Origin: Sedimentisphaerales bacterium
Lineage (GTDB): Bacteria; Planctomycetota; Phycisphaerae; Sedimentisphaerales; Anaerohalosphaeraceae
Assembly (NCBI GenBank): GCA_016926155.1
Contig: JAFGPC010000048.1
Location: 1 to 38,333 of the forward strand
Length of the DNA stretch: 38,333 nucleotides
Direction of reading: 5' to 3'
The stretch's first letter is position 1. The number at the start of each line of letters is the position of its first letter. The notes beneath the pieces were generated by a model. The model worked only from the letters and a program-made list of their open reading frames with translations, was not told where the DNA came from and ran no database searches. Shown one piece after another: positions 6,079-33,178 of this stretch. The position numbers were made by a program, and so were the translations under genes.

Positions 6079-6111
6079 TGAGCTTTGTTCCGGCCTTTGG
6101 ACTTGGATTTC

Positions 6112-6140
6112 TGGTCAACCTCTGCTGTTTCTGTTATAAT
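6112..6140 (+). promoter_or_regulatory. Predicted extended -10 promoter for the sulfatase genes
   Basis: TGGTCA (6112-6117), a 17-bp spacer and a perfect TATAAT (6135-6140) preceded by TGT (extended -10). It lies between the propeller gene stop (6078) and the sulfatase start (6183). Confidence 0.6.
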
Positions 6141-6182
6141 CCATTTGCAAATTGCACAAATCGTTTTATCAGGAGTTACACA

Positions 6183-7616
6183 ATGAACATGCGAATGGAT
6201 CGACGCGAATTTCTCACCCTGGCCGGATACACTACGGCAGTCACGTTGACCGGTTGTTCTCTCGGCAACAGTATAGGTAATCATAGTAAGCCCAACATTA
6301 TCTTCATTCTGTCCGATGATATAGCACAGGGCGATCTCGGCTGCTATGGGCAGAAACTCATCAAGACGCCGAATCTCGACCAAATGGCCGCCGAGGGCAC
6401 GCGTTATTTACAAGCATATTGCGGCACAACAGTTTGCGCACCCTCACGTACATCCTTGATCACCGGACTGCACATGGGACACTCACCAATCCGCGCCAAC
6501 CGGGAGATCCAACCGGAAGGCCAGATGCCGATGCCGGCTGAGACGATCACCGTCGCGCAATTACTAAAGCAGAACGGCTACGCTACCGCCTGTATGGGCA
6601 AGTGGGGCTTGGGTATGTTCGATACCACAGGCAGCCCCTTGAAAAAAGGATTCGATCATTTCTTCGGTTATAACTGTCAGCGTCATGCGCATAGCTATTT
6701 CCCGACCTATCTCTATAACGACGACAAACGTTTCGAATTGCCTGAGAATAAAGATAATGCAAAAAAGATATATGCCCAGAACCTGATTGAAGAAGATGTC
6801 CTTAATTGGGTTCGACAACAAAAAAATCGACCATTTTTTCTATTCTATGCCGTCACCCTGCCGCATGGTAAGTACGAGATTGACGATCAGGGCATCTATA
6901 AGGACAAGCCGTGGTCCGAGCAGGAAAAAAATTACGCTGCCATGGTCACCCGACTCGATTCGGATATGGGGCGTTTGTTTGAATTACTCAAGAAATTGAA
7001 GATCGACGACAAGACACTGGTGATCTTCTCGGGAGACAACGGCTCTTCGTTTCGTCCTTCCTCACCACTGGGCAAGCGATTCGACCAGGCCTCCAACGGA
7101 TTACGCGGCTTCAAACGTGAATTGTATGAAGGTGGACTGCGTCAGGCCGCGATGACACGCTGGCCGGGCGTCATCCCCGCAGGCCGTGTCAGTGATGAAC
7201 CGTGGGCGTTCTGGGATTTTCTGCCGACCTGTATCGAGCTTGCTGGTGCAACACTCCCGGATGGTTTCCACCCCGACGGCTACTCGCTTGTCTCATTTCT
7301 CAAGGGTGGTCCTGCCCCGAAACGCGACTATTTCTACTGGGAACTTCATGAAGGCCGCCCCATCCAAGCAATACGTTTCGGCGATTGGAAAGCGGTGAAG
7401 AACGGTTCTTCAGCAGCTATCGAACTTTACGACCTCAGCAAAGACGTCGGTGAGACTACCAATCTGGCTTCCAGTAAGCCGGAATTGGTCACTAAAGCGG
7501 AAAGCTTAATGAGAATGGCGCGCGTGGAAGATTCAAACTGGCCGATGACTACCCGTAAAAGTTCAAGAAACGTGATACCTGGTTTAATTAAAACCAAACC
7601 GGCATCGCAAACTTAG
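6183..7616 (+). CDS. Tat-exported formylglycine-dependent sulfatase (1)
   Basis: A 477-residue arylsulfatase-family (alkaline-phosphatase fold) enzyme that hydrolyses sulfate esters, probably on polysaccharides. The start at 6183 is chosen over an upstream in-frame ATG because AGGAG lies 7 bp before it and a Tat-type leader begins there: [10 protein letters not shown], then a possible lipobox LTGC. Cys85 in CAPSR is the residue converted to formylglycine. Metal ligands include the Asp pair in LSDD (45-46) and SGDNGSS further on. Activation requires a formylglycine-generating enzyme, which is not in this window. A second sulfatase follows 48 bp downstream, indicating a two-gene unit. Confidence 0.95.
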
Positions 7617-7664
7617 ATTCAGAAATCAGCAGGAACATGATTCTACTAAGGAGCAACGAATCGC

Positions 7665-9149
7665 ATGAACCGACGACAATTTCTAAAAATCACAGCGGTT
7701 TCAGTAGGTGTCTCCTGTCTACCCGGTCTGTCATCCTTAGCAAAATCCGGTCGTAAGCACAATATCGTTTTTTTTCTGGTAGACGATCTGGGCTGGACAG
7801 ATTTGGGGTGTTATGGCAGTTCGTTCTATGAAACACCCAATATGGACCGACTAGCCGCAGAGGGCATGCGGTTCACAGATGCTTACGCCGCCTGTCCGGT
7901 CTGTTCACCAACCCGTGCCAGTATTATGACCGGTAAATATCCCACCCGTGTTGGAATTACTGACTGGATCCAGGGGATGCGTAAACAGAATCCAAAACTG
8001 ATCACCCCCGAGGACCGTCATGAACTGTCTCTGGAGGAAATCACCTTCCCCGAAGTACTAAAAAGGAATGGATATACCACATTTTTTGCCGGCAAGTGGC
8101 ACCTTGGCAGTGAAGGATATTATCCGGAAGACCAGGGCTTCGATATCAACATCGGCGGCCATGACAAAGGTTCCCCTCCAGGTGGGTATTTTTCACCTTA
8201 TAACAATCCCAAACTTTCCGATGGACCCAAGGGAGAATATTTAACTGATCGACTGGCCGAGGAAAGCGTTCGATTCCTGGAAACTCGAAAAGATCAGTCG
8301 AATCCCTTTTTGCTATATTTATCCTTTTATACGGTACATACACCTATCCAGGCCAAACAAGAACATATTGACAAGTACAAGGCTAAACTGGAGAGTTTGC
8401 CCGGACTAAAGGAGAATTTGTTTCGACCAGAACGTGTTTCTTTAACCAAACTTAAACAGAATGAACCATCCTATGCCGGTATGGTGGAAAGCATGGATAC
8501 TGCGGTTGGAAAAGTACTCGATAAGATTCGCCAACTGGGTATGGACCAAAATACTATAATCTTTTTCATGTCGGATAATGGAGGGCTGTCCACACTTCCG
8601 AAACGCCGTCGATGGGCGCCGACCAGCAATGTTCCGCTTCGAACCGGCAAGGGGTGGTGTTATGAAGGTGGTATCCGGGAACCGATGATCGTCAAATGGC
8701 CGGACGTAACGCAGCCGGGAAGTGTATGCTCAGTTCCAGTGATCAGTACGGATTTTTACCCGACGATTCTGGAAATGGTTGGTTTGCCTCTCCTGCCGGA
8801 ACAGCACAGGGATGGTATGAGTCTGGTTCCTTTGCTCAAGAGCGGCTGCGTACTCGATCGTCAGGCAATCTACTGGCATTATCCCCATTATCATGGCAGT
8901 GGTCATCGGCCCTCCGGCGCCATCCGGGCCGGAGATTGGAAACTGATTGAATTTTTTGAGGATAATACAGTCGAATTGTACAATCTTCGACGTGACTTGA
9001 GTGAACAGCATAACCTGGCCGCCGCCCTGCCCGATAAGGTCGACGGGTTGAAAAGGATGCTTAACGATTGGCGGAAGGCCACCGGGGCCAGAATGCCTCG
9101 GCCCAATCCCGATTACGATCCATCTAAAGATCCGGATGTCGAGCAATAA
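7665..9149 (+). CDS. Tat-exported formylglycine-dependent sulfatase (2)
   Basis: A 494-residue sulfatase with a Tat signal (MNRRQFLKITAVSVGVSCLPGLSSLA), the DDLGWTDLGCYGS metal-binding start and formylglycine Cys80 in CSPTR. FAGKWHLG (active-site Lys/His region) and FMSDNGG (metal Asp-Asn) are intact. It is more canonical than its neighbour and resembles the N-acetylgalactosamine-6-sulfatase/iduronate-2-sulfatase-like group abundant in Planctomycetota. The substrate cannot be fixed from sequence. AAGGAG precedes ATG 7665. The transcript ends at the hairpin at 9206-9244. Confidence 0.96.
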   Translation: MNRRQFLKITAVSVGVSCLPGLSSLAKSGRKHNIVFFLVDDLGWTDLGCYGSSFYETPNMDRLAAEGMRFTDAYAACPVCSPTRASIMTGKYPTRVGITDWIQGMRKQNPKLITPEDRHELSLEEITFPEVLKRNGYTTFFAGKWHLGSEGYYPEDQGFDINIGGHDKGSPPGGYFSPYNNPKLSDGPKGEYLTDRLAEESVRFLETRKDQSNPFLLYLSFYTVHTPIQAKQEHIDKYKAKLESLPGLKENLFRPERVSLTKLKQNEPSYAGMVESMDTAVGKVLDKIRQLGMDQNTIIFFMSDNGGLSTLPKRRRWAPTSNVPLRTGKGWCYEGGIREPMIVKWPDVTQPGSVCSVPVISTDFYPTILEMVGLPLLPEQHRDGMSLVPLLKSGCVLDRQAIYWHYPHYHGSGHRPSGAIRAGDWKLIEFFEDNTVELYNLRRDLSEQHNLAAALPDKVDGLKRMLNDWRKATGARMPRPNPDYDPSKDPDVEQ

Positions 9150-12879: not shown

Positions 12880-12912
12880 CTAGCATCGCACTAACATTCT
12901 GCTAATATGTCT
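12880..12912 (+). promoter_or_regulatory. Predicted Pho box upstream of phoB
   Basis: Three direct repeats with an exact 11-bp period and cores CTAGCA (12880), CTAACA (12891) and CTAATA (12902). Nine bases after the last core lies TATTCC (12917-12922) at the -10 position. This is the same layout as before pstS and the porin gene, and suggests autoregulation of phoB-phoR. Confidence 0.72.
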
Positions 12913-12958: not shown

Positions 12959-13660
12959 ATGGCCCGAGAAACGATCCTGGTTGTTGAAGATGAGGAAGAT
13001 GTTCTCGAACTGCTTCGTTACAACCTGGACAAAAACGGCTTTACCGTTCTGACCGCCATGACAGGGGAAGATGCTATTGATACAGCGCAGTCGGTCAAAC
13101 CGAATCTGATTTTACTTGATCTGATGCTTCCTGCCGTGGATGGATTGGAAGTATGCAAGATGCTCAAGAAAGAGTCTTCCACGGAGCACATCCCGATCAT
13201 CATGGTAACGGCCAAAGGGGATGAGGCCGACATTGTGACCGGTCTGGAGATCGGCGCCGACGACTACATTACCAAACCGTTTAGCCCACGAGTTCTGATC
13301 GCCCGAGTCAAGGCAGTATTACGTCGTCCTATCCGTTCGGCTGTTCCGGATCCGGCTGAATCTCCCCCGCTTCACCTTCACGGCATTGAGATCGATCCGG
13401 GCCGGCGGCGGGTGTTGGTCAGGGGTAAACCGATTGAGTTGACCAGTACGGAATTCGGCCTGCTGTATTTTCTGGCTTCCCGGCCGGGCTGGGTGTTTAC
13501 ACGATACCAAATCGTCGACGCCGTTCATGGAACCGATTATCCAGTGACGGATCGTTCGGTGGATGTACAGGTCGTGGGATTACGAAAGAAGCTGGGCTCC
13601 GGTGGGAAATTTGTGGAGACCGTTCGCGGGGTAGGATATCGTTTTAAAGACGTGGATTGA
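12959..13660 (+). CDS. phoB: Phosphate-type response regulator PhoB
   Basis: A 233-residue OmpR/PhoB-family regulator. The receiver domain (about 4-120) has the acidic pocket VVEDEED, phospho-acceptor Asp54 (LLDLMLP), Thr84 and Lys106 (YITKPFS). The C-terminal winged helix (about 135-232) contains ELTSTEFGLLYFLASRPGWVFTR and DRSVDVQVVGLRKKLG, with the typical RGVGYRF end. It starts at ATG 12959 behind AAAGG. The histidine kinase gene follows at 34 bp. The pst genes in the same window and the 11-bp repeat box upstream support assignment to phosphate control instead of another OmpR-type pathway. Confidence 0.93.
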   Translation: MARETILVVEDEEDVLELLRYNLDKNGFTVLTAMTGEDAIDTAQSVKPNLILLDLMLPAVDGLEVCKMLKKESSTEHIPIIMVTAKGDEADIVTGLEIGADDYITKPFSPRVLIARVKAVLRRPIRSAVPDPAESPPLHLHGIEIDPGRRRVLVRGKPIELTSTEFGLLYFLASRPGWVFTRYQIVDAVHGTDYPVTDRSVDVQVVGLRKKLGSGGKFVETVRGVGYRFKDVD

Positions 13661-13694: not shown

Positions 13695-15470
13695 ATGCAA
13701 CGAAAAAAACTGCTCTGGCAACTTTACCCATATTACCTGGCAATCATTATATTGAGTCTGCTTGCCGTCGCCTGGTATGCTTCCGGTTCGTTGCGCCGGT
13801 TTTACCTAAAGCAGACTCGTTCCAATCTCGAAGCACGAGCCCGTATGATTCAAGAAAAGGCTGTAAATACCTACCGATCCCAGGGGACGCAGGCTCTGGA
13901 TGAACTAGTCAAACGGATGGGGCAAATCAGCAATACCCGAATTACGTATATTCTCCCGTCGGGCACCGTTATCGCCGATTCGGATGAAAGCCCCGTCGAT
14001 ATGGTTAACCATGCCGACCGGCCGGAGATCATTCAGGCCTACAAAGGACAAGTGGGCTGGGATTCACGTCCCAGCGATACTTTGAAAATCCGTATGCTAT
14101 ATGTAGCAGTACCGATTCTGGAGGGAGATCGGGTGGTTGGCGTGTTGCGCACTTCGGTTTCCCTAGCTTCGATAGACGAGGTGCTGACTGCGATTTATAC
14201 TCGTATCGCTATCGGAGGCTTTGTTATTGCGCTGCTCGCAGGTGTGTTAAGCTTTTTCGCTTCCCGACGAATAACCCGTCCGTTGGAGGAAATGCGTCGT
14301 GGAGCGGAACAATTCGCCCGGGGTGATCTGGGGCATAAGCTGCATGTCCCGGACTCGGAAGAGATCGCCTCCCTGGCAGAAGCGATGAACCAGATGGCCA
14401 TGGATCTGGATGAGCGGATTCGCACGATTATTACGCAACGCAATGAACAGCAGGCCGTACTGTCCAGTATGATCGAAGGAGTTGTGGCCGTCGACAAACA
14501 TTTCCACCTGATCAGCATCAACGATGCCGCCGCCGATCTGATCGGAATCCGAAATGAAGATTGCAAGGGAAAGAGCCTGCAGGAGGTAATCCGTAATACG
14601 GATTTGTATGAATTTGTTGTACGGGCCCTGCAAAGTAACCGGCCGATTGATGGGCAAATTGTTCTTCGAGAAATCGGAAAAGAGCAATTTATCCAGGCCC
14701 GGGGAGCCGTATTAATTGACGCCCACGGAAGTGAGATCGGGGCGGTGGTCGTGCTCAACGATGTTACGCAACTGCGACGACTTGAGAACATGCGAAAAGA
14801 CTTTGTGGCCAACGTATCCCATGAGTTGAAAACCCCCATTACGTCCATCAAAGGATTCATCGAGACACTTATGGACGGTGCTATCCACAATCCGGAAGAT
14901 GCAATGCGTTTTCTGGATATCATCGCCCGCCAGACTCATCGCCTCAACGCCATCGTGGATGACCTGCTGACTTTAAGCAAGATCGAACAGCAGACGGAAA
15001 AAACCGATATTGAACTGACCGCAGCATCCATTCGACCGGCTATCGCGGCGGCTGTGCAGCTTTGTGAAATCAAAGCCGGCGAAAAGCAGATTAAAATCGA
15101 ATGGGAATGTGATGAGGCTCTGCGTGCCAGGATCAATTCGGCATTGCTCGAACAGGCTGTGGTAAATCTGATCGACAATGCAATCAAATACAGTGAAACC
15201 GGCGCTTTAGTCCGGATTGAAGCCCTACAAACACAAACAGATGTGCAAATCCGGGTAATCGATCACGGCTGTGGAATCGAGGCAATGTATCTGCCGCGAT
15301 TGTTTGAACGGTTTTATCGCGTCGACAAGGCCCGCAGCCGAAAACTCGGCGGCACCGGACTGGGGCTGTCCATCGTTAAACACATTGCCCAGGCCCACAG
15401 CGGCCGGACCACGGTGCAAAGCACGCCAGGCCAGGGAAGCACTTTCACTATCCACCTGCCTCTACCCTAA
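13695..15470 (+). CDS. phoR: Phosphate regulon sensor histidine kinase PhoR
   Basis: A 591-residue membrane kinase that would phosphorylate PhoB. Order: TM1 (about 11-30), an extracytoplasmic domain of about 135 residues with a Cache-like strand pattern (ITYILPSGTVIADSDESP to MLYVAVPI), TM2 (171-189), HAMP (190-242), PAS (about 253-360), HisKA with His376 in VSHELKTP, then HATPase with LIDNAIKYSE, DHGCGI, FERFYRVD and GGTGLGLSIVKH. E. coli PhoR lacks such a large external domain; many Gram-positive PhoR proteins have one. It is the second gene of the phoB-phoR operon. Function in phosphate sensing is inferred from domain order and neighbourhood. Confidence 0.92.
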   Translation: MQRKKLLWQLYPYYLAIIILSLLAVAWYASGSLRRFYLKQTRSNLEARARMIQEKAVNTYRSQGTQALDELVKRMGQISNTRITYILPSGTVIADSDESPVDMVNHADRPEIIQAYKGQVGWDSRPSDTLKIRMLYVAVPILEGDRVVGVLRTSVSLASIDEVLTAIYTRIAIGGFVIALLAGVLSFFASRRITRPLEEMRRGAEQFARGDLGHKLHVPDSEEIASLAEAMNQMAMDLDERIRTIITQRNEQQAVLSSMIEGVVAVDKHFHLISINDAAADLIGIRNEDCKGKSLQEVIRNTDLYEFVVRALQSNRPIDGQIVLREIGKEQFIQARGAVLIDAHGSEIGAVVVLNDVTQLRRLENMRKDFVANVSHELKTPITSIKGFIETLMDGAIHNPEDAMRFLDIIARQTHRLNAIVDDLLTLSKIEQQTEKTDIELTAASIRPAIAAAVQLCEIKAGEKQIKIEWECDEALRARINSALLEQAVVNLIDNAIKYSETGALVRIEALQTQTDVQIRVIDHGCGIEAMYLPRLFERFYRVDKARSRKLGGTGLGLSIVKHIAQAHSGRTTVQSTPGQGSTFTIHLPLP

Positions 15471-20600: not shown

Positions 20601-20654
20601 CTAATCCAACTTTAACCTGTCTCTCACAAGTCCCTAATGCACCCCTTGTACTTT
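20601..20654 (+). promoter_or_regulatory. Predicted Pho box and -10 upstream of the porin
   Basis: Four direct repeats with an exact 11-bp period and cores CTAATC (20601), TTAACC (20612), CTCACA (20623) and CTAATG (20634). TACTTT (20649-20654) lies 9 nt after the last core, the same spacing as in the pstS and phoB boxes. Cores are more degenerate than at pstS (4 or 5 of 6 matches to CTAACA). Confidence 0.6.
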
Positions 20655-20729: not shown

Positions 20730-22010
20730 ATGAAGAACAAAACAATGTGGATATTGTCGCTGATTGTCCTGTTTGCGGGCGCAGGGGCAGTCAGAGCCGA
20801 TGAGATCTCAGATCTCAAAAAGGAAGTGGAGAAGCAATATGATGTCCTGCTCAAAATGCAGACGCAGATTATAGAGCTGGAAGCCGCCCAGAAAAAGACC
20901 GCCGATGTGGTCGCCAAAGGCGCCGCAGTGCCTGACGGTTCACTGATGGAAAAGATCAAGTGGATCGAAAATTTGCGTATCAGCGGCGATTTCCGGTATC
21001 GGATTGAGAATCAGGATTTCTCAACACGGAGCGATGAACGGGATCGGCACCGCATCCGGGCCCGTGTCAAGCTGGAAGCCGACATTACCGATGAATGGAC
21101 CGTCGGTATTCGGATTGCCAGCGGCAGCAGTGATTCGCCTACGTCCACCAATCAGACCCTGGGCGGAGACGGCGGGGACGGCTTCAGCAGCAAGGATATC
21201 TGGCTGGACCTGGCCTATGCCGATTGGCATCCCACAGATGATTTCAACATCATCTTCGGTAAAATGTCCAATCCGTTCTACAACGCGGGAAAGCACCAGT
21301 TAGTCTGGGACAGCGATGTCACACCCGAAGGCGGCGCTGTCAATTATGCCTTTAAGCTGTCGGAATCACTCTCCGGAACCGTAACCGGTGCCGGATTCTG
21401 GGTGCAGGAAAACAGTTCCGCCAGAGATGCGGCCATGTGGGGCATCCAGGGTATGCTAAAGAACATGATGGCGGATGGAAGCTACCTTCTCGGTGGTGTC
21501 ACCTATTACGATTTTCTGCGTATCGAAGGCAATGCCTTTGCAAATCTTAGCCAAAACGGGAACACCTGGATGGGCGGACCACCAGCAACCAACTATGTGT
21601 ATGATTACGATCTGTTCGAAGCCTTCGGTGAATATGGGTGCAAGGCCGGTGATATGCCTGTGACAGCATACGGCACCTATATTGTAAATACAGCCAGTTC
21701 CGTTCATGAAGATACGGCATGGGCGCTGGGATGTAAGCTGAACAAAGCCAAAGATCCGGGAACATGGCAGTTCGGATACGAGTACAGGGATGTTGAGGCG
21801 GACGCTGTAATCGGCGGGCTCAGCGATTCGGACTTCGCCGGCGGCGGAACCGGAGCCAAGGGACACAAGTTCAATTTTACCTATCAGCTTGCCAAAAATA
21901 TCCAGGCTTCACTGAACTATTTCTGTGCCGAGCGACATGATAATGCCGTTTCCGGATACGACGGACAGTCGATGAATACATTTCTCGGTGATATTGTGAT
22001 CAAATTCTGA
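20730..22010 (+). CDS. Outer-membrane porin (Porin_5-like), candidate phosphate-limitation porin
   Basis: A 426-residue protein: signal peptide (MKNKTMWILSLIVLFAGAGAVRA), a short coiled coil (about 24-62, EISDLKKEVEKQYDVLLKMQTQIIELEAAQKKT), then a long beta-rich region with the family pattern LRISGDFRYRIENQDF, RDRHRIRARVKLEADI, WTVGIRIASG, IWLDLAYADWHP and IIFGKMSNPFY, ending in a terminal Phe as expected for an outer-membrane barrel. The N-terminal coiled coil may trimerise or anchor it. A predicted Pho box lies upstream and Na/Pi transporter genes lie downstream, so a role in phosphate or organophosphate entry is inferred; ion selectivity is not visible. Confidence 0.85.
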   Translation: MKNKTMWILSLIVLFAGAGAVRADEISDLKKEVEKQYDVLLKMQTQIIELEAAQKKTADVVAKGAAVPDGSLMEKIKWIENLRISGDFRYRIENQDFSTRSDERDRHRIRARVKLEADITDEWTVGIRIASGSSDSPTSTNQTLGGDGGDGFSSKDIWLDLAYADWHPTDDFNIIFGKMSNPFYNAGKHQLVWDSDVTPEGGAVNYAFKLSESLSGTVTGAGFWVQENSSARDAAMWGIQGMLKNMMADGSYLLGGVTYYDFLRIEGNAFANLSQNGNTWMGGPPATNYVYDYDLFEAFGEYGCKAGDMPVTAYGTYIVNTASSVHEDTAWALGCKLNKAKDPGTWQFGYEYRDVEADAVIGGLSDSDFAGGGTGAKGHKFNFTYQLAKNIQASLNYFCAERHDNAVSGYDGQSMNTFLGDIVIKF

Positions 22011-22127: not shown

Positions 22128-22160
22128 TTAATACAACTTGAACACTACGCTAACCATCGC
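22128..22160 (+). promoter_or_regulatory. Possible degenerate Pho box, distal to first Na/Pi gene
   Basis: Three 11-bp-spaced cores TTAATA (22128), TGAACA (22139) and CTAACC (22150) resemble the CTAACA repeats. A TATCTT hexamer follows 17 nt after the last core, not 9. The match is weak. Confidence 0.3.
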
Positions 22161-22345: not shown

Positions 22346-22389
22346 TTAATAAAATACTGGCCTCATTCTAATGATTTGCTAAGATAGGG
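22346..22389 (+). promoter_or_regulatory. Possible degenerate Pho box, proximal to first Na/Pi gene
   Basis: Four 11-bp-spaced hexamers TTAATA (22346), CTGGCC (22357), CTAATG (22368) and CTAAGA (22379) lie about 45-85 bp before the ATG at 22432. The second is poor and no good -10 follows at 9 nt. The 421-bp gap from 22011 otherwise holds only the porin terminator and the distal candidate box. Confidence 0.35.
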
Positions 22390-22431: not shown

Positions 22432-24114
22432 ATGGACTGGGAGTTGACGTTTACGATCATTTTTCAGGTGCTGGGGGGATTGGGCATCTTTCTGCTGGGT
22501 ATGAAGCAGATGTCCGAGGGCATGCAGGAGGTGGCCGGAGATCGACTTCGTCGTTTGATCGGGTATGTCACAAACAATCGATTCTTGGCCTGTGGCGTGG
22601 GTACTACGGTCACCTCGATCATACAGTCCAGTTCTGTGACAACCGTAATGGTCGTAGGAATGATCAATGCCGGTCTTATGACACTGCGCCAGGGGATCGG
22701 CGTCATTTTCGGCGCCAATATCGGCACGACGATGACCGGTTGGCTGTTGACACTAAAAATTGCTGATTACGGTCTGCCGATGCTGGGGATCGCCGCGTTT
22801 TTCTATTTGTTCAGTAAAAACGACCGGATTCGCTTTACTGCTGGAGCAATTATGGGCCTGGGGATGGTGTTCTTTGGTCTGCAATTGATGAGTAAGGGCC
22901 TGCATCCGATTCGGGGAATGGAAGGATTCAAAGAGTGGTTTTCTCGATTCGAGCCAAATAGTTATTTCGGTGTCATGAAATGTGTGCTTGTCGGTGCGAT
23001 TCTCACCGGAATCGTCCAATCCTCGTCAGCAACACTGGGCATTACCATGTCGCTTGCGGTCACCGGAGTCATCACGTATCCAACCGCTGCAGCGCTGGTA
23101 TTAGGTGAGAATATCGGTACTACTGTAACTGCCCTGCTGGCCTCGATCGGGACCACGCGTGTCGCCCGTCGTGCCGCTTATGCTCACACTTTCTTCAATG
23201 TGCTGGGCGTCTTATGGATCACCAGTCTTTTCTTTTTATACATCAAATTTATCCCCTGGATCATGCATATTGATCCTGCCCAGACGATCTATACGGACGA
23301 AGGGACCAGCTATCCAAATGTTAAAATTGCCATTGCGGCGACACACAGCGGATTCAATATAATCAATACGCTTCTTTTTTTACCTTTCATCGCTTACATG
23401 ACCCGGTTCCTTGAGTGGCTCGTGCCCGATCCCAAAACGCCGGAAAAGCCGCATTTGAAATACCTGGATATCCGCATATTGGATACCCCGGCGATTGGAA
23501 TCCAGCAATCCCAGAAAGAGGTCCACCGTATGGGCGATTCCGTAGCGCAAATGCTGCGGGACCTGGAGCAGGTTCTGACTGCCGACAAACGAAAGAAGGA
23601 ACTGGAAAGCCGGATCTTCCAAACCGAGCACGATCTCGACCTCGTACAAAAGGACATTGTCGAGTTTCTCGGTGGGATTATGGAAGGCAATATCTCCCAC
23701 GACGTCGTCGACCGAGTACGGAGACAACTTCGTATTTCCGATGAATATGAGTCGATCAGCGATTATGTCATGAACATTTTAAAACTTCGACTGAAGCTAT
23801 ATGACAACGAGCGACAGATCTCCGAACAAGGCAAAACAGAACTGTTGGATCTCCACCGGCATGTAGCTGCCTATATCGATATGATCAACGGATCGGTTGT
23901 GCTGGGAACCGGGAGGATCCTTAAGGAGGCCCAGGTGCAGGGTACGGAGATCACCCATCTGATGAAAGAATATCGATCCAGTCATCTGAATCGCGTAGAA
24001 GCAGGTGAGGCGTCTCCGCTCAAGAGCCTGATCTTTACAGATATGCTGAATGCATATCGACGCATTAAAGACCATGGACTTAATATAGCCGAGGTCATGG
24101 CTGGCGAAAAATAA
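22432..24114 (+). CDS. Na/Pi cotransporter family protein with PhoU-like tail (1)
   Basis: A 560-residue inner-membrane protein. The membrane half (about 1-325) has the inverted-repeat hallmarks of the family: QSSSVTTVMVVG with GANIGTT in the first half and QSSSATLGITM with GENIGTT in the second. The C-terminal ~210 residues are helical and PhoU-like (SQKEVHRMGDSVAQMLRDLEQ, ISDEYESISDYVMNIL). Members move phosphate with sodium; some (E. coli YjbB) export it, so direction is not certain. It is the most divergent of three tandem paralogues. GGAATCGGT precedes ATG 22432. Confidence 0.9.
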   Translation: MDWELTFTIIFQVLGGLGIFLLGMKQMSEGMQEVAGDRLRRLIGYVTNNRFLACGVGTTVTSIIQSSSVTTVMVVGMINAGLMTLRQGIGVIFGANIGTTMTGWLLTLKIADYGLPMLGIAAFFYLFSKNDRIRFTAGAIMGLGMVFFGLQLMSKGLHPIRGMEGFKEWFSRFEPNSYFGVMKCVLVGAILTGIVQSSSATLGITMSLAVTGVITYPTAAALVLGENIGTTVTALLASIGTTRVARRAAYAHTFFNVLGVLWITSLFFLYIKFIPWIMHIDPAQTIYTDEGTSYPNVKIAIAATHSGFNIINTLLFLPFIAYMTRFLEWLVPDPKTPEKPHLKYLDIRILDTPAIGIQQSQKEVHRMGDSVAQMLRDLEQVLTADKRKKELESRIFQTEHDLDLVQKDIVEFLGGIMEGNISHDVVDRVRRQLRISDEYESISDYVMNILKLRLKLYDNERQISEQGKTELLDLHRHVAAYIDMINGSVVLGTGRILKEAQVQGTEITHLMKEYRSSHLNRVEAGEASPLKSLIFTDMLNAYRRIKDHGLNIAEVMAGEK

Positions 24115-24227
24115 GAGCATTCATCGCGTTATGGACTTCGCCGGTATAGGCAACTATGAGGATGTCTTGGTGTATGAGGGGATGTTTTTACCTCTCTAAA
24201 TGATCTGCAGACAAACAGGAAGCAGCA

Positions 24228-25946
24228 ATGGTAGAAATGATTTTCAAAACAATCGGGGGGCTGGCGCTCTTTCTTTACGGGATGACTCTGCTATCCGACG
24301 GCTTGAAAAAGGCGGCCGGAAACAGGATGCGTCAGCTTCTGGAATCCATGACAGGTAATCCGTTGATGGGCTTCGCCGTCGGCATGACGGTGACGGCCAT
24401 GGTGCAGAGCAGCTCGGCGACGACTGTGATTGTCATCGGACTTGTCAATGCGGGCCTGATGACTCTGCGGCAGGCAATCTGTGTAATCATCGGAACCAAT
24501 GTAGGTACTACGGCAACCGCATGGATCGTGTCTCTGACAAGTTTTGAATTTAAGATTTCCAATTATGCCCTTCTTTTCGTCGCCATCGGTTTACTTCTCG
24601 ATATGGTGGGAAAAACAAGAAAAACCAAAAGCATCGGTCAGATACTGGTCGGATTCGGCATCCTGTTTCTGGGTATCGATTTCATGAAGGAATCCTTCAG
24701 CGGTCTCAAAAGCAGTCCGGCCGTGATTGACTGGTTGACCGGTCTGGCCGATAAGCCGATCCTGGCTCTGCTGGGAGGAGCCCTGATCACGATGGTGATC
24801 CAGAGCAGTTCCGCTTCCATCGCCATGGTCCAGAGTCTTGCCGGCAGCGGCGCCTTCGGCAGTGAGTGGGAAAGTGCATTGAATGTTGCCATCCCGTTTG
24901 TGCTGGGGTGCAATATCGGGACAACCATCACCGCCCAAATTGCCGCACTTCGGACAAATGTGGCCAGTCGAAGAACTGCCTGGGCTCATACCTTGTTCAA
25001 CGTGGGAGGATCGGTCATTGCATTACCTCTGGTTTATCTCGGCTGGTATGGAAAGCTTGTGCATATTGTGGCTCCCTGGGAATTGACAGCAAAAACCGTT
25101 GTGCCAACGATTGCTGTTGCCCACACCTTGTTCAATGCTGCCAGTTCGGTTCTGTTTCTGCCTTTAGCCGGCTGGCTTGAGACTCTGGTAACGAAATTTA
25201 TTAAGCCGCGTCGGGGAGAGATGGTCGACCACATGGTCGTTCTCGAGCAACATCTGCTGGACACCCCGGTCCTGGCTTTGCAACAATCCAAGCGGGAAAT
25301 CGTTCGAATGGCCAGGGAAGGAAAACACGCCCTGGAAATAGCGATCCAGGCGTTGATGGCCAGTGATAGAAAGGGTGTGGAAAGTACCCGAAAAATCGAG
25401 GACCTAGTGGATGCCTACCAATTTCAAATCACCAGTTATCTGGTGGATCTTTCCCAACGGCAATTGGATGATGAGGTATCCCGCGAACTGCCGGTGCTGC
25501 TTCACATGGTCAATGACCTGGAGCGAGTCGGAGACCACGCCGTTAATATTGCCGAAATTGCCGACCGTAAAATTGAGCACGGAATCGTGTTTACAGAAGT
25601 AGCCAGCGAAGAATTCAAAGGAGCTGTGGACGAAATTAATCAGATGTTTGATAATATCATTCAGTCCCTGGACAAGAGCGACATCCAGGCGGCGCATCGA
25701 GCCTTGTCCAGTGAAAACAAGCTGAACCGGATGCAGGTACAGTTTCGCCGTCATCATGTGCAGCGAATGACTGATGGGGTCTGTGCTGCGGAGGCCGGCG
25801 TGATTTTCATTGACGTGGTGGACAACATCGAAAAGATCGGGGATCATCTGACCAACGTTGCCCAGTCGGTCATCGGAGGGATTCAATGGGCCGGGATCAA
25901 GGGCAGCATGCTGAGTGGTGAATATGAAGCAATCATTGAGGAATAA
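24228..25946 (+). CDS. Na/Pi cotransporter family protein with PhoU-like tail (2)
   Basis: A 572-residue paralogue. Membrane repeats QSSSATTVIVIG/GTNVGTT and QSSSASIAMVQ/GCNIGTT are intact. The PhoU-like tail (about 345-565) contains two metal-site-type motifs, HMVNDLERVGDHAVNIAE and VDNIEKIGDHLTNVAQ. By hand comparison this tail is about 85% identical to that of the next gene, while the first ~160 residues are clearly less alike. GGAAG precedes ATG 24228, 113 bp after gene 1; I see no promoter or Pho box in the gap, so co-transcription is likely. Confidence 0.9.
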   Translation: MVEMIFKTIGGLALFLYGMTLLSDGLKKAAGNRMRQLLESMTGNPLMGFAVGMTVTAMVQSSSATTVIVIGLVNAGLMTLRQAICVIIGTNVGTTATAWIVSLTSFEFKISNYALLFVAIGLLLDMVGKTRKTKSIGQILVGFGILFLGIDFMKESFSGLKSSPAVIDWLTGLADKPILALLGGALITMVIQSSSASIAMVQSLAGSGAFGSEWESALNVAIPFVLGCNIGTTITAQIAALRTNVASRRTAWAHTLFNVGGSVIALPLVYLGWYGKLVHIVAPWELTAKTVVPTIAVAHTLFNAASSVLFLPLAGWLETLVTKFIKPRRGEMVDHMVVLEQHLLDTPVLALQQSKREIVRMAREGKHALEIAIQALMASDRKGVESTRKIEDLVDAYQFQITSYLVDLSQRQLDDEVSRELPVLLHMVNDLERVGDHAVNIAEIADRKIEHGIVFTEVASEEFKGAVDEINQMFDNIIQSLDKSDIQAAHRALSSENKLNRMQVQFRRHHVQRMTDGVCAAEAGVIFIDVVDNIEKIGDHLTNVAQSVIGGIQWAGIKGSMLSGEYEAIIEE

Positions 25947-26028
25947 ACAGTGCCTTAGATCTGCCATTGCTTCAGCCATGAATACCTGATTCAACATAGA
26001 CAACAAGGCGAAATGTAAGGGAGTATGG

Positions 26029-27762
26029 ATGGGTATTGATTGGAAGGAGTTGGTTTTCTTTGTTGTAGGAGGCCTCGGTCTGTTCCTTATTGGTATGGGG
26101 ATGATGTCTGAGGGACTCAAAGAGGTAGCCGGACGAAAGCTCAAGCAAGTCTTGGAATCAATGACCAAACAGCCACTCGTTGGCTTTGCGATGGGAGCGA
26201 TTGTAACCGGATTGATTCAAAGCAGTTCTGCAACAACTGTAATGATCATCGGACTAATCAACGCAGGCCTGTTAACACTTAAACAAGCCATTTGTGTTAT
26301 ATTTGGCGCCAACGTAGGTACTACTATAACGGCGTGGATTGTTTCATTGACTCAGTTCGAAGGCTTCAAAATCACAGACTACGCTCTTCCGGCAGTAATG
26401 ATTGGCTTTCTCCTGCAAGTACTTGGAAAAAAACGAAAAACTAAAAGTATTGGAAAGATTATTATAGGCTTTTCCGTTCTTTTCATCGGTCTGGGATTCA
26501 TGAAAGATGCCTTTGCCGGTTTGGAAGAAAATCCTCATGTGGTCCAATGGCTGGCCGGGATAGGGGGAAAACCGCATATCGCCCTTCTTGCGGGGATGTT
26601 CATTACCATGCTGATTCAGAGCAGTTCGGCTTCTATCGCGATCTTTCAAATGATGGCTGTCGGCGGAGCTCTTGGGGAAGACTGGATCAATGTGCTTAAT
26701 GTGGCAATCCCCTTCATGCTGGGCAGTGATATAGGGACAACTATCACAGCACAAATTGCCGCCCTTCAAACCAATGTCCCAGCCAAACGTGCTGCCTGGG
26801 CACATACGATGTTTAATGTAATCGGAGCTGCATTGGTCCTTCCTTTTTTCTATGCCGGCCTTTTCACAAAAGCTGTCCTGGCAATCAGTTGGTGGCAACT
26901 GGGGCCCGGTACGATCCTGTCTACCATCGCAGTGGCCAATACTCTTTTCAAATTTTGTTGTTCGGCCCTTTTTCTTCCATTTTCTAGTCAATTAGAAGCA
27001 TTGGTCAAGCAGATTGTCCGCCAGAAAAAAGGTGACATAATTATTCGGCCTGTGGTTTTGGAAGCCAGATTGCTAGACACTCCTGCAATCGCCCTGGAAC
27101 AGTCCAGACGAGAGATCGTACGGATGGCGCAGGAAGGAAAACGGGCTTTGGAATCGGCCATTCAGGCGTTAATGGACAGCGATAGAAGGGGTGTGGAAAG
27201 CACCCGAAGAATCGAAGACCTGGTGGACACGTACCAATTTCAGATCACGACCTATCTGGTTGATCTTTCCAAACGACAGTTGGATGAAGATGTCTCTCGA
27301 GAATTGCCGGTCTTATTGCACATGGTCAACGACCTGGAGCGGGTTGGGGACCACGCTGTAAACATTGCAGAAATTGCTGATCGTAAGATTGAGCATGGAG
27401 TCGTGTTTACTGAAGTTGCCAGCGAGGAATCCAAGGGAGCCGTGAAGGAGATATTCAAAATGTATGAAAATATCCTTCAGGCGCTGGATAAAAATGATGT
27501 TCAGGCAGCCCATCGAGCCTTGTCCAGCGAAAATAAGCTGAACCGGATGCAAGTGCAGTTTCGCCGTCATCATGTGCAACGAATGACCGATGGAGTCTGC
27601 GCTGCCGAGCCCGGGGTGATTTTCATTGACGTTATCGACAATATTGAAAAAATTGGAGATCATCTGACCAATATTGCCCAGTCCGTAATCGGAGGGATAC
27701 AATGGGCCGGTATCGAAAGTAACACGTTGAGCGGAGAATACGAAGCCATTATCGACAGCTAG
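26029..27762 (+). CDS. Na/Pi cotransporter family protein with PhoU-like tail (3)
   Basis: A 577-residue third tandem paralogue with QSSSATTVMIIG/GANVGTT and QSSSASIAIFQ/GSDIGTT membrane repeats. The tail again carries HMVNDLERVGDHAVNIAE and IDNIEKIGDHLTNIAQ. A run of 35 residues ending in MTDGVCAAE is identical to gene 2, pointing to a recent duplication or gene conversion. AAGGGAG lies 5 bp before ATG 26029, which sits 82 bp after gene 2. pstS follows behind its own Pho box, so this set ends here although no terminator hairpin was found. Confidence 0.9.
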   Translation: MGIDWKELVFFVVGGLGLFLIGMGMMSEGLKEVAGRKLKQVLESMTKQPLVGFAMGAIVTGLIQSSSATTVMIIGLINAGLLTLKQAICVIFGANVGTTITAWIVSLTQFEGFKITDYALPAVMIGFLLQVLGKKRKTKSIGKIIIGFSVLFIGLGFMKDAFAGLEENPHVVQWLAGIGGKPHIALLAGMFITMLIQSSSASIAIFQMMAVGGALGEDWINVLNVAIPFMLGSDIGTTITAQIAALQTNVPAKRAAWAHTMFNVIGAALVLPFFYAGLFTKAVLAISWWQLGPGTILSTIAVANTLFKFCCSALFLPFSSQLEALVKQIVRQKKGDIIIRPVVLEARLLDTPAIALEQSRREIVRMAQEGKRALESAIQALMDSDRRGVESTRRIEDLVDTYQFQITTYLVDLSKRQLDEDVSRELPVLLHMVNDLERVGDHAVNIAEIADRKIEHGVVFTEVASEESKGAVKEIFKMYENILQALDKNDVQAAHRALSSENKLNRMQVQFRRHHVQRMTDGVCAAEPGVIFIDVIDNIEKIGDHLTNIAQSVIGGIQWAGIESNTLSGEYEAIIDS

Positions 27763-27887
27763 ATGACTTTTTGGACGATTCTGTCCACCCTGCAAGGAAA
27801 GATCACGGGGAGTTCTTTTTAACAAACCATATGGATTTTTTTCTGATCATTCAAAAACTTCATCGACTTCAAATTGCTCGTGGGATT

Positions 27888-27930
27888 CTAACAACGCTCT
27901 AACACAGGGCTAACAAACCAAACGTATCTT
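27888..27930 (+). promoter_or_regulatory. Predicted Pho box and -10 of the pst operon
   Basis: Three identical CTAACA cores start at 27888, 27899 and 27910, an exact 11-bp period. Nine bases after the last core lies TATCTT (27925-27930), a -10-like hexamer, 54 bp before the pstS ATG. The geometry equals the E. coli Pho box (7-bp repeats, 4-bp spacers), with the core changed from CTGTCA to CTAACA. Confidence 0.85.
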
Positions 27931-27983
27931 TCAGTAGAGCATTGGACAGGAATAAGAAAGGTATGTAAGGGAAAGGTAAAGAC

Positions 27984-28850
27984 ATGAGCAGAAGGACAAA
28001 AACAAACTTTAAGACGTTCGTCGGAACCCTCCTGATTTGTGGAGAGTTAATGGCAATTACTTTAGTAGCAGCAAACCATGTAATGGCCCAGACCAGCCGA
28101 CTGAACATTCAGGGCAGTACAACGGTTGGACCGATCGGCGACGCTTTTGCAGAGGCGTACAAGGCCATGCATCCGGGAATCAATATCACCGTGAATAAGA
28201 CCGGCAGCGGCGACGGGGCAGCCGCCATTGTTGATGGCCGATGCGATATCGCCATGATGAGCCGTTTTATGAAGGATACGGAATTTAAGAAAGCGGTTGT
28301 GAATGATATTTTCCCGGTCGCTCATGTGATCGCCATGGATGGAGTATGCGTAATCGTACACCCTTCCAATCCGGTAAAATCCCTTGGATCGGCTCAAATA
28401 CGGGCTATATACAAGGGTGAAATCTCCAACTGGAATCAGATTGGCGGACCAAACCTGCCGATCGTAGCCATCAGCCGCGATACCTCTTCCGGGACCTATG
28501 AAACATTTGAAGATCTGGTCATGAAGAAGGAAAAGATGGCCTCCGGCGTCGAATATGTAAGCTCCAATCCGCAGGCACACGCCCGTGTCAGCACGACAAC
28601 GGGTGCCATTGGGTATGTCGGGCTCGGTTTTGTAGATATGAAAGTCAGGGCCCTACAAATTGACGGCGTGGCGCCAAGCCGCTCCACGATAGCCTCCGGA
28701 AAGTATCCGGTAAGCCGGCCTCTGTTCCTGTTCACCAATGGCTATCCCAAACTGGGTTCTCCCATACACGAGTTCTGTACCTTCTATTTAACCGAAAAGG
28801 GGCAGGAAATTATCGAAGCCAAGGGATTTGTTCCCCTGACGAACTACTGA
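27984..28850 (+). CDS. pstS: Phosphate ABC transporter, periplasmic binding protein
   Basis: A 288-residue PstS-family protein with a long signal peptide (about 1-35, ending in ANHVMAQ). Ligand-site patterns are visible: IQGSTTVGPI near the start, NKTGSGDGAAAIVDGRCDIAMMSR in the middle, and RDTSSGTYETFEDLV, the phosphate-binding loop of the second lobe. It captures phosphate for the PstC-PstA channel. It is the first gene of pstSCAB-phoU, behind a near-perfect Pho box; AGGAAAGGT-type sequence lies before ATG 27984. There is no lipobox, so a soluble periplasmic form is expected. Confidence 0.95.
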   Translation: MSRRTKTNFKTFVGTLLICGELMAITLVAANHVMAQTSRLNIQGSTTVGPIGDAFAEAYKAMHPGINITVNKTGSGDGAAAIVDGRCDIAMMSRFMKDTEFKKAVVNDIFPVAHVIAMDGVCVIVHPSNPVKSLGSAQIRAIYKGEISNWNQIGGPNLPIVAISRDTSSGTYETFEDLVMKKEKMASGVEYVSSNPQAHARVSTTTGAIGYVGLGFVDMKVRALQIDGVAPSRSTIASGKYPVSRPLFLFTNGYPKLGSPIHEFCTFYLTEKGQEIIEAKGFVPLTNY

Positions 28851-28952: not shown

Positions 28953-29975
28953 ATGAAGCAGCCGGATATTTCACCGAATGTGAGTGTGGCAAAAGATACA
29001 TCCTTGCAGGCAGTGGTCGAGTTTTCTCGGCCACTGCTTCTTACACCGGGTCAGGATCTGGCAGGGTACATCGGCAGTCGTGTAGGCAGGGCTCTCATCT
29101 TTTTGATTACATGCGTCTCCGTGCTTGCCGTGCTTTTGATCTTTTACTTTATCATCCGCGAAGCGGTTCCGTTTGTTACATTGGAATCTGTGAAGACATC
29201 ACTGGCTCGTATCAGTGAGTTTCTGACCAGTAAAAACTGGTTTCCGGAACATGAAGAACACCCGGAATTCGGCGCCCTGACAATTATCGTGGGTTCCATA
29301 TATGTCACTGTGGTAGCCCTGATACTGGCGGTGCCTTTCGGGGTGCTCTCGGCGATCTTTTTGAGCGATATCGCTCCGTTTACCGTCCGTGAAATTGTCA
29401 AGCCTGTAATCGAGCTTCTGGCGGCCATCCCTTCCGTGGCGTACGGTTTCTTTGCGATTGTTGTTGTCGCACCCTGGCTACAGAATAAATTCGGCTTCAC
29501 CACCGGCGCCAATGCCCTGAATGCAGCCATGATCCTGGCACTGATGGCGGTGCCGACTATCATCAGTGTCGCTGAGGATTCGCTCTCGGCCATTGGACGG
29601 GAGATTCGTGAGGCTTCGTACGGATTGGGAGCAACGCGGACCGAAACCATGCTTAAGGTGGTTATCCCGGCCGCTCACAGCGGGATTATCGCATCGATTA
29701 TTCTGGGGATGATGCGGGCCATCGGAGAAACCATGGTCGTTTGGATGGCCGCGGGCATGGCAGCTCAGGTTCCCTCTCCATGGTGGGATCTATCCCAGTC
29801 GGTTCGCCCGATTACTGCGACCATCGCACAGGAAATGGGCGAAACACCGCAGGGCACCCCGCACTATTATTCCCTGTTCGCGCTGGGGGTGCTGCTACTA
29901 ATCTTTACCTTCGGCCTGAATATGGTCAGCGAACATTTTATGTCCAGGGTCAAACATAAAGGGGGATCGGCATGA
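28953..29975 (+). CDS. pstC: Phosphate ABC transporter permease PstC
   Basis: A 340-residue inner-membrane permease with a first helix at about 47-68, a periplasmic stretch, and a five-helix transport core. The ABC-permease coupling motif is present (REASYGLGATRTETMLKVVIPAAHSGIIASIILG), followed by MRAIGETMVVWMAAG. The N-terminal ~45 residues are cytoplasmic and longer than usual. It overlaps pstA by 4 bp (ATGA), so the two subunits are translationally coupled. Length is normal for the short PstC type. Confidence 0.94.
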   Translation: MKQPDISPNVSVAKDTSLQAVVEFSRPLLLTPGQDLAGYIGSRVGRALIFLITCVSVLAVLLIFYFIIREAVPFVTLESVKTSLARISEFLTSKNWFPEHEEHPEFGALTIIVGSIYVTVVALILAVPFGVLSAIFLSDIAPFTVREIVKPVIELLAAIPSVAYGFFAIVVVAPWLQNKFGFTTGANALNAAMILALMAVPTIISVAEDSLSAIGREIREASYGLGATRTETMLKVVIPAAHSGIIASIILGMMRAIGETMVVWMAAGMAAQVPSPWWDLSQSVRPITATIAQEMGETPQGTPHYYSLFALGVLLLIFTFGLNMVSEHFMSRVKHKGGSA

Positions 29976-31591
29976 GCACATACATGACGATTCGCAGGGC
30001 CTGGGATAAAGTCTTTACCATCCTTTCCGGCGGTTCGGTGGTAATCCTCGGGATCTTGTTGGTAATTGTCCTTGTACCCATGCTGGGAAAGGGTTGTTCT
30101 GCTGTCTTTTTCCGTGAGACGATTGAATTTCGCAAGATGGAATTTGCCGAGCTTGGACGGGGAGACGAACAGAAACTGAAAGAGGAGGTCGCCCAAGTAA
30201 CGGAAGCACGAAAACCAATTTATGATTTGATAAACAACTTCAGCGAAGGAATTGATACCGAGCGGCAACGCAATCGGGCACGAGAAATGTACCGCCTTTA
30301 TGGGGAGCAGCTTCGACTCAAAAACACCCCAAGCGAACAATACAGTGAATACCGAGGGCGAGCTAAGGACCTTAGGAATTTGCTGCAGGATGCATACGAG
30401 GCAATAGACGCTGAAACCGCTAAAAGCTTCCTTCAGAAAGTCCTAGAGAAACGAAACGATCCGATATTTCAGGATACTGCTATCAGTGAATATTTCCACA
30501 TGGCTGAGAGGTACATGCGGACCGTCGAAACGATCGATTTGTCCAAACGAGATCAATATGCCATAGCTTTGAATGAAGTACAGGAAGCTCTGAAAAAGCT
30601 TCTGGGACCTCGCCCCAGTGAAGATCTGCCTCCGCTGGCGGAAAATCGATACGGCGCAACGCGATGGGACCTTATGCAGCGGGATCTGGATCACCTTATG
30701 TATGCTACGGTATGGGTAGAGGAGGAGCCGGGGCAACCTTTGGTCAAAAAGAAAATCCCCAGGACCGATCCATCACAGTTCGGTGGGACGGAATTGAAAC
30801 CTTTGTTCGGAACAGTAAAGAATAATCTGGATGCCATATTCCGTCCACAGCGGCGGTTTTACTGGCAGTATTTCATTGATGGAAGTACTCCCGGCCATTT
30901 TTTCGGAGGGGTCGGACCGGAGGTGCTGGGAACATTACTTCTTTCGATTTGCGCCATGCTTTTTGCCGTTCCGCTGGGAATCATTTCCGCCGCTTATTTG
31001 GTCGAATGCGGTGGGAACAACTTCGTGATGAAGGTTATCCGGACATGCATTAACACACTGGCAGGCGTACCAAGCATTGTGTTCGGATTATTTGGTCTGG
31101 CCTTTTTTGTATTGGTTGTTTTTGGCAAACCTTGTATCCTGGCTGCCTCGTTGACGCTGGGCCTGCTGGTCCTTCCCGTTGTGATCCGGGCCAGTGAAGA
31201 AGCTATCCGAGCTGTGCCGCGGACCTATAAAGAGGCGTCACTGGCACTGGGTGCCGGACGTTTTCGCACATTTGTTATGGTGATTCTTCCGGCGGCGATG
31301 CCCGGTATCCTAACGGGAATCATTCTCAGTGTCAGCCGAGCGGCGGGGGAAACAGCCCCGATCCTGTTTACCGGAGCAGTGTTTTTTGGAAATGTGCCGA
31401 AATCACTAATGGGCCAGACGCCTGCCCTGTCGTACGGCATCCATGGGATTGCCACGGGTGACCGGGTCGGAATGCAGATGCCGCATCAGCAATTTGGAAT
31501 GGTGATGACGCTGGTTCTTCTGGTTCTGTGCCTGAATATGGCGGCGATCATACTACGGGCGCGAATCAGCAAGAAACTGAGAGGATACTAA
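29972..31591 (+). CDS. pstA: Phosphate ABC transporter permease PstA, long form
   Basis: A 539-residue permease. TM1 is at about 19-38, followed by a ~275-residue external region (40-315) that is charged, helical and partly coiled coil ([54 protein letters not shown]). The conserved core resumes at [16 protein letters not shown] and contains the coupling loop [24 protein letters not shown] and [17 protein letters not shown]. Usual PstA is about 280-300 residues; extended forms are known from Gammaproteobacteria, typically together with a long PstC, which is not the case here. Stop TAA overlaps the pstB start (TAATG). Confidence 0.93.
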
Positions 31592-32499
31592 TGGAAGTGA
31601 GCGAACCAATGCCGCAGACACCTGAAAAAAAACCAGATCTGAAACCGGCCGAACCCATTGGCAGCCAACCATCGTCGATCCGGATTACAGCCGGCGCCGG
31701 TCGGCAAGATCGCCCTTCCACAGCGTCAGGAGTATCGTGTGAATCGTCCTCTATTATCCGTTCGAAAAACTTCAGTTTATATTACGGGCAAAAAGCGGGC
31801 GTCAAGGACATCACCATGGATATCGAATCTCGTATGGTGACGGCTATCATCGGCCCCAGCGGCTGCGGAAAGAGCACTTTCCTGCGAAGCATCAATCGAA
31901 TGAATGATCTGATCCCGCATACAAGGGCCGAAGGCGTTCTCGCCGTAAACGGGGTGAATGTCTACGATAAACGAATCAACCTGGTCCATCTGCGTCAGCA
32001 GGTGGGAATGGTCTTTCAGAAACCAAATCCCTTTGCCAAAAGTATCTATGACAATATCACCTACGGCCCAAAGCTTCAGGGGATTCGTCGGAAAGCCTTG
32101 CTGGATGAAATCACGGAAAAATGCCTTCGTGATGCCGCTTTATGGGAGGAGGTTAAGGATGACTTGAGCAAGTCGGCACTAGCACTGTCCGGCGGCCAGC
32201 AGCAGCGCCTCTGTATCGCCCGAACTCTGGCAACCAAGCCCAAGGTCGTTTTGATGGACGAACCCTGTTCCGCCCTGGATCCGCTGGCAACGGCCAAGAT
32301 TGAGGATTTGATCGGCCAGCTAAAAAATGAATACACGATTGTCATCGTAACCCATAATATGCAGCAGGCGGCCCGAATCAGTGAAAAAACCGCGTTTTTC
32401 TGCCTGGGAGAACTGGTGGAATACGGTGATACAGGACAACTCTTTACGAATCCTGAAAAGAAAGAAACCGAAGATTATATCACCGGACGATTCGGATAA
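31591..32499 (+). CDS. pstB: Phosphate ABC transporter ATP-binding protein
   Basis: A 302-residue ATPase. Walker A GPSGCGKS is at 88-95, signature LSGGQQQR at 199-206, Walker B VVLMDEP at 219-225 and the switch His at 255 (VTHNM). The Pst-specific NRMNDLIP and [10 protein letters not shown] segments are present. The ~55 N-terminal residues before [12 protein letters not shown] are extra, Pro/Ser-rich and probably disordered. ATG 31591 shares its A with the pstA stop, which implies coupled translation; ATG 31609 is an alternative start. It drives phosphate import through PstC-PstA. Confidence 0.96.
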
Positions 32500-32512
32500 A
32501 AGGAGAACCAAC

Positions 32513-33178
32513 ATGTCCGAACATTTGCGACGCGCCATCGAAAATTTGAAAACCAAGTTGCTCAATCTCTGCAGCGCTGTAGAAGAACAGTTATTCAAGG
32601 CAGTCAAATCCATCCAAACCCAGAATGCCAAACTGGCCCGCGACGTGGTCGATCTGGACAGCCGTATTGATGGAATGGAGGTAGATATTGAAGAGGAATG
32701 CCTCAAACTTCTGGCATTACATCAACCCGTTGCCATCGATCTTCGTTTTATCGTCACGGTCCTGAAGATCAACAACGACCTGGAGCGAATCGGGGACCTG
32801 GCGGTGAATATAGCCGAGCGAGGGGAATTTCTGGCTAAACAGGAAAAAATCGATGTGCCTTTTGATTTTGAGACGATGGCCGACAAGACCCAGATCATGC
32901 TGCGAATGAGTCTGGACGCCTTGGTTAAGCTGGACTGTGCGATTGCACACAAAGTACTGTTGGCTGACGACGAAGTGGATGCAATCAACCGCCAAATGTA
33001 CCAACAGGTTAAAGAGACGATTATCAACCACCCGGAATGGACCGAAATCGTGATCCACCTGCTCAGCGTCTCGCGGCACCTGGAGCGCATTGCCGATCAT
33101 GCGACCAATATTGCCGAAGACGTGATCTATATGGCCGAAGGATACATTGTTCGACATCGCACTGAGCAGTACAAATAA
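32513..33178 (+). CDS. phoU: Phosphate signalling protein PhoU
   Basis: A 221-residue, two-repeat helical-bundle protein. Each repeat has the metal-site pattern: INNDLERIGDLAVNIAERGEF in the first and SRHLERIADHATNIAEDVIYM in the second. PhoU links the Pst transporter to PhoR so that the regulon is silent when phosphate is plentiful, and limits uptake. AGGAG lies 7 bp before ATG 32513, 13 bp after pstB, so it is the last gene of the operon. The same motifs occur in the tails of the Na/Pi paralogues. No terminator hairpin was found downstream. Confidence 0.96.
   Translation: MSEHLRRAIENLKTKLLNLCSAVEEQLFKAVKSIQTQNAKLARDVVDLDSRIDGMEVDIEEECLKLLALHQPVAIDLRFIVTVLKINNDLERIGDLAVNIAERGEFLAKQEKIDVPFDFETMADKTQIMLRMSLDALVKLDCAIAHKVLLADDEVDAINRQMYQQVKETIINHPEWTEIVIHLLSVSRHLERIADHATNIAEDVIYMAEGYIVRHRTEQYK

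Follow-up and report, generated by a model that had tools for sequence, protein, structure and literature searches.

A putative Pho box with an altered CTAACA core upstream of pstS in a Sedimentisphaerales bacterium

Results

Identification of the repeat array

Three CTAACA repeats in 11-bp phase upstream of pstS in a Sedimentisphaerales bacterium constitute, as we hold with high confidence, a PhoB-type Pho box with an altered core, which would be bound by PhoB and would activate the pstSCAB-phoU genes under phosphate starvation. The box is very probably a variant of a well-known type of regulatory site, with a letter code unlike that of Escherichia coli. PhoB as the binding protein, activation as the outcome and TATCTT as the -10 element are each what we infer from the sequence. 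The array lies in the window, by which we mean the whole stretch of 38,333 nucleotides analysed, corresponding to contig C94 of a 5.0-Mb genome. All boxes and phosphate-related genes described for the window are on the forward (+) strand.

In a Pho box, PhoB binds head-to-tail to units of 11 nt (PMC4415409). In the present genome, direct units of 11 nt, each with a core of 6-7 nt and a less conserved spacer, occur in tandems of at least two; they lie upstream of pst and phoB, recur before other phosphate genes, and are accompanied by a PhoB-PhoR pair encoded in the same genome (12959-13660 and 13695-15470).

Direct reading of the letters places CTAACA at 27888..27893, 27899..27904 and 27910..27915, and TATCTT at 27925..27930, 9 nt past the third repeat, exactly as claimed in an earlier note on this DNA. 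TATCTT is a putative -10 element, at the offset that is modal among related boxes, and the 9 nt in front of it read AACCAAACG. The two spacers within the triple, ACGCT and then CAGGG, are unlike each other, and the start codon of pstS (27984) is located downstream of both the triple and TATCTT. The same note had considered an in-phase triple of this kind improbable, in agreement with our counts: it is the single exact hexamer triple at step 11 in the window, against an expectation of 0.005 per random window (estimated from 400 windows of a first-order Markov model). When as many as three mismatches were allowed, the CTAACA triple was found at two places in the window, before pstS (no mismatches) and before phoB at 12880 (two mismatches), and at none in 100 dinucleotide shuffles. 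CTAACA-N5-CTAACA occurs in the whole 5.0-Mb genome at the pstS site only. A calibrated sequence model (R1) trained on relatives likewise ranked the pstS site first genome-wide (E 0.0035), with few sites besides it. This model missed the phoB and porin boxes of the window, and a periodic matrix was therefore relied on within the window.

Phosphate genes and further boxes on the contig

The array is followed by pstS, encoding a phosphate-binding protein (27984..28850; TIGR02136, 267.8 bits, above cut-off), the permease genes pstC (28953..29975; TIGR02138, above cut-off) and pstA (29972..31591; TIGR00974 on residues 294-533, above cut-off), the ATPase gene pstB (31528..32499; ABC_tran and operon position) and phoU (32381..33178; TIGR02135, above cut-off). 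The starts of pstB and phoU are probably further downstream. The pstA frame comprises 539 aa with the permease domain from residue 294, and either has a long N-terminal extension or starts much later.

Further upstream, the contig encodes a PhoB-like response regulator with the recognition helix DRSVDVQVVGLRKKL (12959..13660), a PhoR-like sensor histidine kinase with HAMP, PAS, HisKA and HATPase domains (13695..15470), and a porin (20730..22010; Porin_5, with a weak Porin_O_P match). The regulator scored 250 bits against the TIGR02154 PhoB equivalog, under the cut-off of 296.2, yet this was its best NCBIfam match; it is named PhoB-like because of its synteny with phoR and the phosphate genes. 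Between the porin gene and the pst operon (22432-27762) lie three successive genes for Na/Pi cotransporters with a PhoU domain (copy 1, 22432..24114; copy 2, 24228..25946; copy 3, 26029..27762). Elsewhere on the contig, CTCTGTG repeats at 9-bp steps (509-535 and 926-952) flank a small reverse-strand frame (547-912), and two sulfatase-family genes are neighbours at 6075-9149.

Both strands of the window were scanned with a matrix trained on relatives only, the window's pstS and phoB having been left out. The core frequencies of the matrix are C (79%), T (94%), A (89%), A (95%), C (69%, T 29%) and A (63%). Five sites were obtained, all of which precede phosphate genes: pstS, which scored highest (25.6 bits), the porin gene, phoB and, with two sites, the first Na/Pi-PhoU transporter. 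Once shifted registers of the five sites were set aside, no other score in the window exceeded 9.0 on either strand, and the maxima in five random windows were 4.1 to 8.3. Boxes before phoB and the porin gene had been predicted earlier, and both were recovered by the scan. The phoB box, CTAGCA-N5-CTAACA-N5-CTAATA (12880..12907; 18.7 bits), is followed after 9 nt by TATTCC, while the porin box (20601..20639; 20.6 bits) has four units, CTAATC, TTAACC, CTCACA and CTAATG, followed after 9 nt by TACTTT; together with the pstS box and its TATCTT, these boxes share one geometry. The first Na/Pi transporter gene has a putative box well ahead of it (TTAATA, TGAACA and CTAACC; 22128..22155; 19.5 bits) that is without a -10 at 9 nt, and a weaker putative box is found directly before the same gene (22346..22384; 12.3 bits). 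Both Na/Pi boxes, being without the 9-nt geometry, are less certain than those of pstS, phoB and the porin gene. Since the same box precedes phoB, the porin gene and the Na/Pi transporters, the contig appears to represent a phosphate regulon.

Conservation of the repeats in related genomes

Upstream of 26 pstS genes, pairs of CTAA[CT] were spaced by 11 bp in 29 cases, by 22 bp in 16 and by 33 bp in four, and each other spacing up to 40 was seen at most once. The corresponding numbers upstream of 30 phoB genes were 27, 11 and three, with other spacings almost never observed. Both sets were chosen as pstS and phoB upstreams and include the window's own two loci; in coding and far-upstream control sequences from the same loci, CTAA[CT] was rare. 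The cores are kept across genera while the spacers vary freely. The earlier note had made its reading depend on whether the repeats recur before pstS orthologues of close relatives, where we found them to be strongly conserved.

Among 59 genomes from the family and order, a search allowing no more than one mismatch placed the CTAAC triple at 47 places, compared with 30 for a reversed control pattern (both tallied from the match table). By our own count, based on pstS and phoB match coordinates and the downstream genes, 33 of the 47 places precede pstS, phoB, porin or Na/Pi genes, as do nine of the ten exact CTAAC triples. The triple is present in 21 of 34 genomes with a close PhoB versus five of the 25 others (Fisher p 0.0017), and the reversed control pattern showed no association with a close PhoB (p 1.0). 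In three loci of the order (L125, L145 and L146) no box was found in the 300 bp before phoB, despite a similar PhoB helix. Some weak genome matches, to glutamyl-tRNA synthetase in G039, a NikR-like protein in G002 and secreted proteins, were judged to be due to chance or unclear. In two families of the order, a CTAAC-type box lies upstream of DUF3450 genes (L261 in G056:C11 and L262 in G027:C23), which suggests that a DUF3450 gene belongs to the phosphate regulon.

The recognition helix of PhoB and a second regulator

Base contacts of E. coli PhoB are made by T194, V197, R201 and R219 (PMC3264566). At these positions, the window PhoB has S for T194 and G for R201 and keeps V197 and R219; it also has Q and V where the E. 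coli protein has H198 and R200. It is reasonable to suppose that loss of R201 accompanies loss of the G in CTGTCA, and the change in the helix would explain the changed core. Over all 126 PhoBs, residue 201 was associated with the box (p 6e-6), but not significantly so outside the order (p 0.19), and two of the 57 PhoBs with R201 were scored as boxed. The tree of PhoBs contains a single well-supported independent pair for covariation of residue 201 and box. The link between them thus appears to be confounded by descent, and independent covariation is suggestive only.

Another regulator of the OmpR family might read the box in place of the window PhoB or alongside it. A second PhoB-like regulator in the genome (L239, G000:C63:32484-33161) is 50% identical to the window PhoB and has a similar helix, RSVDVQIAGLRQKM. 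Its own box (G000:C63:32410-32446), with the units TTAACC, CTAATC and CTAACC, is located ~75 bp upstream and ranks second genome-wide in the calibrated sequence model. Moreover, a good pstS box is present in genomes G041 (L008) and G014 (L017), in which a PhoB of the window's type was not found; as these assemblies are 96% and 92% complete, respectively, the phoB gene may simply be missing through an assembly gap, or another regulator may operate there. However, the box precedes phoB itself in most genomes of the order, the phoB, porin, Na/Pi and pst genes are all located on one contig, and presence of the close PhoB is correlated with that of the box among the 59 genomes. A role of another regulator at the box is thus unlikely, and the window PhoB is the preferred candidate for its binding.

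Distance between the box and the -10 element

Of 50 related boxes, 21 have TANNNT at 9 nt past the final hexamer, one has it at 11 nt, and no offset other than 9 nt is represented more than six times; the remaining 29 boxes have no TANNNT at 9 nt. For phoA and pstS of E. coli, letters located upstream of the genes give 11 nt between the hexamer and what we take to be the -10. The E. coli placement, which the earlier note had cited as a parallel, is thus not reproduced: the modal distance here is 9 nt. The distance from a Pho box to its core promoter has been reported as strict (PMC10294691), and the present boxes make a case for asking whether it can shift by 2 bp.

A fixed distance to a -10-like hexamer would also fit repeats that belong to a constitutive promoter, or that an alternative sigma factor recognises, and to which no activator binds. 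Such a site would, however, not yield two to four in-phase copies at 11 bp, with spacings of 22 and 33 bp being common, and the matches are concentrated before phosphate genes; furthermore, a standard sigma-70 promoter scan of 27760-28000 identified no promoter. We regard a promoter element of this kind as very improbable. Slippage can produce short perfect repeats, but a chance repeat or recent tandem duplication is hardly credible given the differing spacers ACGCT and CAGGG and the expectation of 0.005 per window, and the constancy of the cores among variable spacers in other genera argues against recent duplication in particular.

Discussion

Comparison with known Pho boxes

The proposed PhoB box resembles that of E. 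coli in its 11-bp direct repeats before pstS and phoB and in the accompanying PhoB-PhoR pair (PMC4415409), as well as in having a fixed distance to the downstream -10. The two differ in the core, which is CTGTCAT/CTGTCA in E. coli and CTAAC[A] here, in the number of units, usually three or more here, and in the regulator, where R201 and H198 of E. coli PhoB correspond to G and Q. The Bacillus subtilis PhoP box is composed of direct TTAACA-like repeats and has the AACA core and the direct repeats in common with the present box; its first base is T, versus C in 79% of the units here. The cyanobacterial SphR box, CTTAACCT, contains at least three repeats of 8 bp (PMC1906773). In a comparison of the boxes alone, the TAAC core and the usual three tandem repeats are common to both, whereas the flanking bases differ. 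In Desulfovibrio vulgaris, a PhoB site tested by EMSA, AGGTTACAGCATAGTTAC (PMC6456213), has two repeats at an 11-bp step, as read from the printed letters, with a GTTAC core versus CTAAC. The Streptomyces PhoP box, GTTCACC, is built from 11-nt direct repeat units (PMC4415409) as here, with different core letters.

Taxonomic distribution

The box is frequent in the order. It becomes weaker in the class beyond it, where looser boxes with the units TTAACG, CTAACG and CTCACG precede phoB in other families. A further Phycisphaerae genome, from beyond the first set, has a pstS box of 9.3 bits with 9 nt to TATTTT. Outside the order, the strict triple was no commoner than the control pattern in a sample of 294 genomes of the phylum. 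PhoBs with a similar helix, accompanied by comparable boxes, were also found further afield: in a Desulfobacterales genome the phoB upstream region scored 18.5 bits and a second site 23.4, while the scores in Spirochaetales were 14.7 bits for phoB and 13.6 and 9.4 for pstS. The description of the box as lineage-specific in the earlier note accordingly holds for its frequency in the order and the lack of excess elsewhere in the phylum, but is too strong in view of the boxes in further families of the class and among some Desulfobacterota and Spirochaetota.

We tentatively consider it possible, albeit with less than even confidence, that a PhoB branch without R201 (Q/H198, V200, G/S/A201) has recoded CTGTCA to CTAAC[A] and shortened the distance from box to -10 by 2 bp, and that this branch with its code spans Phycisphaerae and some Desulfobacterota and Spirochaetota; vertical descent and transfer are here taken together as the means of spread and not separated. 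If true, such recoding would imply a shifted contact between PhoB and the sigma factor.

Proposed regulation and implications

Under phosphate starvation, PhoR (13695-15470) would phosphorylate PhoB (12959-13660), which would then occupy the repeats head-to-tail on one helix face, with one monomer per 11-bp unit. PhoB is predicted to bring in RNA polymerase at a promoter with TATCTT as its -10 and no -35, the box taking the place of the latter, and pstSCAB-phoU would be switched on. By its own box, phoB would be subject to autoregulation. The most probable mode of action is autoregulated activation when phosphate is low, given that the contig encodes both PhoB and PhoR and that a box precedes phoB itself.

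In a literature search we found no description of a Pho box for Planctomycetota. A defined motif would make phosphate regulons predictable from sequence alone in a large and mostly uncultured group of bacteria. In addition, the box and its regulator may provide a natural, testable case in which the recognition helix of a response regulator and its DNA code have changed together.
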